NCBI GenBank assembly: GCA_029261855.1
Contig: JAJDAN010000061.1
Span: 1-45,407, forward strand
Direction: 5' to 3'
Length of the DNA stretch: 45,407 bases
Origin: Deltaproteobacteria bacterium
Lineage (GTDB): Bacteria; Myxococcota_A; UBA9160; UBA4427
The position numbers were made by a program, and so were the translations under genes. Of this stretch, positions 10,554-11,063 are shown in pieces. Below the pieces are notes generated by a model. It did no database searches, was not told where the DNA came from, and was given only the letters and a program-made list of their open reading frames with translations. The stretch's first letter is position 1. Each line of letters starts with the position of its first letter.

Positions 10554-10583
10554 TCTGGTCGTCGCAGAGACAAAGGAGACAGC

Positions 10584-11063
10584 GTGGCGAGCATGCATGA
10601 CTTCGAGATGGCGGCGATCACGGGTGAGGACGTGGCGTTGTCGAAGTTCAACGACCAAGTCTGTCTGGTGGTGAACGTCGCCAGTCAGTGAGGACTCACT
10701 CCCCAGTACGCAGGTCTGCGTACCCTTCACGAAGACAACGCAAAGCGCGGCTTCCAGGTCCTGGGCTTCCCCTGCAACCAGTTTGGTAAGCAGGAGCCGG
10801 GGACGGACGACGAGATCCTCGACTTCGCCCGGTCCAAGTTCGGCGTCGAGTTCCCGATGTTCTCGAAGATCGAGGTCAATGGGGACGGGGCCAGTGGCCT
10901 CTATCAGTTTCTCAAGGCCGGCAACCCGGACGAAGACGGCAAGGAAGACGTCGCCTGGAACTTCACCAAGTTCCTGGTGGGCCGCGACGGCAAGGTGCTC
11001 AAGCGCTATGCGCCGACGGTGACGCCGGAGCAGATCGCCGAAGAGCTGGACGGTTTCCTGTAG
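10584..11063 (+). CDS. selenocysteine-containing glutathione peroxidase (159 aa, Sec36 at TGA 10689-10691)
   Basis: Reduces hydroperoxides with thiols. The frame runs from GTG 10584 (AAGGAG 6 nt upstream) to TAG 11063, interrupted only by an in-frame TGA at codon 36. Read as selenocysteine (U) it gives NVASQUGLTPQY, exactly where all GPx enzymes carry the catalytic Sec or Cys (NVAS-x-C/U-G-x-T). The rest of the tetrad is intact: FPCNQFG (Gln66) and WNFTKFLV (Trp125, Asn126). Length with Sec is normal for GPx. The resolving Cys of thioredoxin-type GPx (KCDVNG) is absent; the site reads KIEVNG (95-100), so a glutathione-type or other monothiol cycle is more likely. A SECIS-like hairpin follows the TGA. 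Automated calling would leave only a fragment from 10857 or label it a pseudogene. Confidence 0.93.
10706..10723 (+). promoter_or_regulatory. bacterial SECIS element
   Basis: GTACGCA-GGTC-TGCGTAC forms a perfect 7-bp stem with a GGUC loop, beginning 15 nt and with its loop 22 nt after the TGA codon, within the range for SelB-dependent recoding. The apical GCAGGUCUGC is, as I remember it, the same as the apex of the E. coli fdhF SECIS, whose loop G and U contact SelB. It lies within the coding sequence, as bacterial SECIS elements do. Confidence 0.85.

Follow-up and report, generated by a model that had tools for sequence, protein, structure and literature searches.

A predicted selenocysteine-containing glutathione peroxidase with an in-frame bacterial SECIS hairpin, and its relatives

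The window analysed here, a stretch of 45,407 nucleotides that makes up contig JAJDAN010000061.1 of a deltaproteobacterial genome, carries a gene that we identify as encoding a glutathione peroxidase (GPx) with selenocysteine (Sec) as its catalytic residue, with a probability of roughly 0.96. The gene is interrupted by a TGA codon at residue 36, and the corresponding UGA is almost certainly read as Sec, as judged from the sequence and its relatives. The features are the following, with the evidence for each in brackets.

10573-10578, plus strand: Shine-Dalgarno-like AAGGAG, 5 nt upstream of GTG 10584 (sequence and orthologue sites)
10584-11063, plus strand: predicted Sec-GPx gene, 159 amino acids, GTG start, TAG stop (frame, Pfam match, orthologues)
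10689-10691, plus strand: in-frame TGA, predicted catalytic Sec36 (TGA in 33 main-clade genes and in the distant homologue L171; Cys codon in 73 homologues)
10706-10723, plus strand: predicted bacterial SECIS upper stem-loop, GTACGCA-GGTC-TGCGTAC (fold, pairing in 26 orthologues, codon freezing, fdhF apex)
10779-10781, plus strand: Gln66 codon, catalytic tetrad (invariant in 34 Sec forms)
10827-10829, plus strand: Ala82 codon, at the resolving-Cys position of Cys homologues (Ala or Val in 34/34 Sec forms, Cys in 70/73 Cys forms)
10956-10961, plus strand: Trp125-Asn126 codons, catalytic tetrad (invariant in 34 Sec forms)

The gene, its product and the SECIS hairpin

The frame that opens at GTG 10584 closes with the TAG at 11061-11063, and its sole interruption upstream of that stop is the TGA of residue 36. 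Inspection of the sequence showed AAAGGAG followed by 5 nt and the GTG; the start is supported because most orthologues have ATG at the equivalent codon, preceded at the same place by a GGAGG- or AGGAG-like site. The product obtained by reading through the TGA matches the complete Pfam profile GSHPx (PF00255, positions 1-108 of 108; E 1.5e-40, 137.6 bits against a cut-off of 27 bits) as well as solved GPx structures (top match 5e-45). According to the alignment, the tetrad U36, Q66, W125 and N126 is complete in the window and invariant across the 34 Sec forms. Sequence, frame and alignment thus agree with the original prediction, which had proposed a GPx frame from GTG to TAG with TGA at the catalytic position and Gln66, Trp125 and Asn126 intact. 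The product is collinear with GPX4 chains (154 versus 155 residues) and has no oligomerisation loop; in comparison with GPx1, 137 of its residues match 161, which makes it about 24 residues shorter over the matched stretch. By the loop criterion the predicted protein is a monomer-type (GPX4-like) GPx.

On one side the gene is flanked by a divergent short-chain dehydrogenase gene (PF00106; 9671-10501, minus strand), closely conserved (82%) only in the genome of the same genus among the loci compared, and on the other by a convergent gene for a Rieske oxygenase of the vanillate O-demethylase type (PF00355, PF19112; 11109-12269, minus strand). No conserved operon around the GPx gene was present among the loci compared, and a search for sigma-70 and terminator patterns found none.

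Fourteen nucleotides after the TGA a hairpin of 7 bp with the loop GGUC begins (10706-10723). It lies inside the coding frame just after the UGA and has a G in the apical loop, as in a bacterial SECIS. The stability of the hairpin by itself is ordinary (z -0.87 in a single-sequence fold, with 37 of 200 shuffles equally stable); a stability within the range of the shuffles makes the single-sequence hairpin weak evidence. The comparative evidence for the predicted element is strong. Pairing is maintained in all 182 cells (100%) across 26 orthologues, including three sequences in which a compensatory change from C-G to U-A replaces Arg46 by His with the pairing kept; such a two-sided change is limited to one of the seven pairs in these 26 sequences. 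Fold and orthologue pairing (26/26) hence both bear out the 7-bp hairpin that had been proposed. Codon usage is frozen as well: the codons CAG (Gln41), GCA (Ala43) and CTG (Leu45) are invariant in the 33 main-clade genes, and that of Gly44 is GGT wherever the residue is Gly, versus four codons in use at Gly44 and six at Leu45 among the Cys homologues. The mean synonymous entropy is 0.25 for the hairpin codons versus 1.09 for other conserved codons, with a permutation p of ~2e-5 that treats columns as independent; the contrast is fair since relatedness is common to both sets of columns.

The apex of the Escherichia coli fdhF SECIS, GCAGGTCTGC, was confirmed in NC_000913 after UGA codon 140. The window apex, GCAGGUCUGC, is the same, as had been claimed, and the reading frame is also equal (GCA GGU CUG, Ala-Gly-Leu). 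This shared apex and frame suggests that the loop presented to SelB is identical in both. The window hairpin differs from the fdhF SECIS in lying three nucleotides further from the UGA, with unrelated flanks, and in having a perfect 7-bp stem that offers no counterpart to the bulged U of fdhF. Recognition of the SECIS in E. coli makes use of the bulged U as well, and its absence here counts against the Sec reading. A search with Rfam at gathering thresholds gave no match in the window. The ten-letter GCAGGTCTGC is not enriched in the genome, with 52 sites versus 58 for the reversed control; of these 52 sites, 30 were inspected for a TGA lying 8-24 nt upstream, and none of the few that had one resembled a convincing selenoprotein.

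Sec decoding and conservation of the TGA

The genome to which the window belongs (6.96 Mb, 98.6% complete, a draft of 91 contigs) contains the complete Sec-decoding set, with selA (517 bits), selB (273 bits, above cut-off, 651 amino acids), selD (338 bits) and a tRNA-Sec (66 bits, above the gathering score; anticodon UCA by ARAGORN). The original prediction had named the absence of selB and tRNA-Sec as the observation that would count against it; both are present along with selA and selD, and the claim that the organism decodes Sec gains support from this set and from the conservation of TGA and hairpin in orthologues. The selD gene (L048, G000:C24:63971-64897, minus strand) has one in-frame TGA of its own near the N-terminus (LTSLVPAGG-TGA-ARKLSAEG), at what we take to be the usual Sec position of selenoprotein SelD, and a hairpin with a GUC apex follows. 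Because of this TGA and the hairpin after it, SelD is probably a selenoprotein here as well.

The sample comprised 61 genomes, the window's own and 60 relatives that share its genus, family or order. An orthologue interrupted by a single in-frame stop, which is always TGA, is present in 26 of them, and all 26 also have selA. More TGA forms come from five other genomes belonging to the order and class and from two MAGs, one of Gammaproteobacteria (L053) and one deltaproteobacterial (L054). The other TGA genes of the main clade, which has 33 in total, are 58-80% identical to that of the window. Alignment of homologues at position 36, which had been suggested as a check, gave 73 with a Cys codon at the position of the window TGA and 34 with TGA. 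The description of bacterial Sec-GPx proteins as rare is right for bacteria as a whole but not within this order, in which 26 of 61 sampled genomes have the gene. Gene finders will cut such genes at the TGA. In one further genome the contig stops exactly where the SECIS hairpin of the Sec-GPx orthologue starts (L172, G253:C133, contig end 110544), and the catalytic codon is invisible because the gene is cut there.

A TGA differs from TGC or TGT by a single base, and in a draft assembly it could represent a miscall or a nonsense mutation in an ordinary Cys-GPx gene. Such a pseudogene or sequencing error is extremely improbable: 33 separate genes of the main clade share the TGA at this codon, the hairpin after it is conserved, and the region 3' of it is under purifying selection. 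The median dN/dS of this region is 0.20 over 348 pairs, which indicates that the part downstream of the TGA is translated and selected; together with the TGA orthologues it rules this explanation out. Reading of the UGA as an ordinary amino acid, whether because the code is reassigned or because a tRNA inserts Cys or another residue, is also highly improbable, if slightly less so. Any residue would restore the frame, and Cys works in 73 homologues. However, several orthologues of this gene (L011, L012, L016 and others) themselves terminate at a TGA in the ordinary way, which makes a reassigned code unlikely, and both the full selA, selB, selD and tRNA-Sec set and the SECIS with the fdhF apex after the TGA speak against such a reading.

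The resolving cysteine and the probable reductant

Sequence alignment showed that position 82 is Cys in 70 of the 73 Cys forms and Ala or Val in all 34 Sec forms. The same column is Cys in yeast HYR1 (3cmi), and we take this residue to be the resolving cysteine of HYR1. With Ala82, the window protein does not have the resolving cysteine that marks atypical 2-Cys, thioredoxin-type GPx proteins. None of the 34 Sec forms has a Cys at the poplar GPX5 position, one residue past 82. The original prediction was right that the resolving Cys is missing but had located it in a KCDVNG motif, while the Cys homologues and HYR1 place it at the position of Ala82. Two sister Cys-GPx paralogues without Cys82 (L191 and L196, in G011:C145 and G023:C139) occur in genomes that also hold a Sec-GPx.

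Glutathione is probably the main reductant of the predicted enzyme. A 1-Sec cycle with glutathione is the best reading because Cys82 and the oligomerisation loop are absent and the glutathione biosynthesis genes, a gshA-type GCS2 and gshB, are present in the genome above cut-off. A genuine selenoprotein with a GPx fold could instead be reduced by thioredoxin or glutaredoxin, a sub-variant of the Sec reading that we consider possible but rather unlikely. It would fit the monomer type of the protein, as the residues with which tetrameric GPx binds glutathione are lacking in GPX4-type enzymes (PMC8614756), and the result of a search of the genome for a strict glutathione reductase, in which the candidate reached 452 bits versus an NCBIfam cut-off of 556. 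Against it stand the lack of a Cys at either of the two positions in any Sec form and the genes for glutathione biosynthesis.

For the Sec-GPx with glutathione as reductant we propose that SelB-GTP-Sec-tRNA on the SECIS hairpin would cause UGA 10689 to be decoded as Sec, giving a cytosolic, monomer-type GPX4-like enzyme. Its Sec36, held by Gln66, Trp125 and Asn126, would reduce H2O2 or lipid hydroperoxides, and the resulting selenenic acid would most likely be cleared by two glutathione molecules, since Ala takes the place of the Cys82 found in ordinary bacterial GPx. We infer substrate, rate, reductant and peroxidase activity, like Sec insertion, from the sequence; the earlier descriptions 'high-rate' and 'not thioredoxin-recycled' likewise derive from the family.

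Evolution of the Sec forms and comparison with known systems

Of the 107 rows in the tree, 33 TGA forms and one Cys form (L052) make up one clade with support 100/99. Within it, L052 (2262-2729 in JAPOOX010000086.1) and the TGA form L053 are sisters, again with support 100/99. The catalytic codon of L052 is TGT, position 82 is Ala, the hairpin is partly decayed (AATACGCAGGTCTTTGTAC) and selA is still present in the genome. L052 is best read as a reversion from Sec to Cys with a remnant of the SECIS. Another TGA form, L171 (G245:C94, 1001-1471, minus strand), shares 50% identity, has no Cys at position 82 and carries a different hairpin after the TGA (GCAGCU-AGGUG-AGCUGC); G245 is the one TGA-form genome beyond the class among the phylum-sample genomes listed. 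The tree places L171 among Cys forms. An AU test rejected neither a union of L171 with the main clade (p 0.19) nor a union of that clade with the GPx of Schistosoma (p 0.20), which the tree places outside. A second, independent origin of Sec from Cys in L171 is likely, and the p value of 0.19 keeps it short of proven. An origin separate from that of the Schistosoma GPx is likewise likely, with the same reservation (p 0.20).

We lean towards the view that bacteria have repeated on their own the transition known for animal GPX4, in which gain of Sec is coupled with loss of the resolving cysteine and a thioredoxin-type 2-Cys enzyme becomes a 1-Sec glutathione peroxidase. This would have happened at least once in the main clade and probably again in L171, and would have been partly undone in L052, where the resolving Cys was not regained. 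In this bacterial clade Sec and the resolving cysteine are almost perfectly mutually exclusive, as they are in animals, and one lineage (L052) has been caught after loss of Sec with its SECIS still recognisable. The clade may serve as a natural and independent test of the idea that Sec renders a resolving cysteine superfluous.

Bacterial Sec-GPx proteins have been known as a kind since 2005, when five sequences with UxxT and a bacterial SECIS were reported from the Sargasso Sea (PMC1088965), and the window gene adds a member. A Sec-containing GPX-like protein is also known from Treponema denticola (PMC1794560), and a 2026 review lists a 'GPX-like protein' among high-confidence predictions (PMC13188914). 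A literature search for Myxococcota and selenoproteins found no paper. According to a paper of 2021, bacterial GPx proteins have both cysteines, and Sec entered with animals, after which the resolving cysteine became dispensable (PMC8614756). The main clade, as predicted from its sequences, shows the animal-like pairing of Sec with no resolving cysteine in bacteria. What is added here is the exclusion of Sec and Cys82 across the clade and the probable fossil of a reversion in L052, in a group that is large and little described.

Similar to the GPX-like proteins of T. denticola and the Sargasso Sea, the window protein belongs to PF00255 and has UxxT (here U-G-L-T) with a bacterial SECIS right after the UGA. 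Going by their descriptions, the former is known from one genome sequence and the latter from five environmental ones, whereas the clade found here has at least 33 genes, with one order at its centre; set beside the same descriptions, the window's clade has a nearly fixed SECIS sequence and consistently lacks Cys82. With the Cys-GPx proteins BtuE, HYR1 and plant GPX5 it shares the fold and the tetrad, and the Cys forms found in relatives have about 45-58% identity; unlike proteins of this type, which have a catalytic Cys and, in 70/73 Cys forms, Cys82, it has Sec36 and Ala82. Animal GPX4 (PHGPx) resembles the window protein in the predicted catalytic Sec, the same tetrad and the absence of both oligomerisation loop and resolving cysteine, but its SECIS is located in the 3' UTR, whereas that of the window is of the bacterial type and lies within the coding frame.
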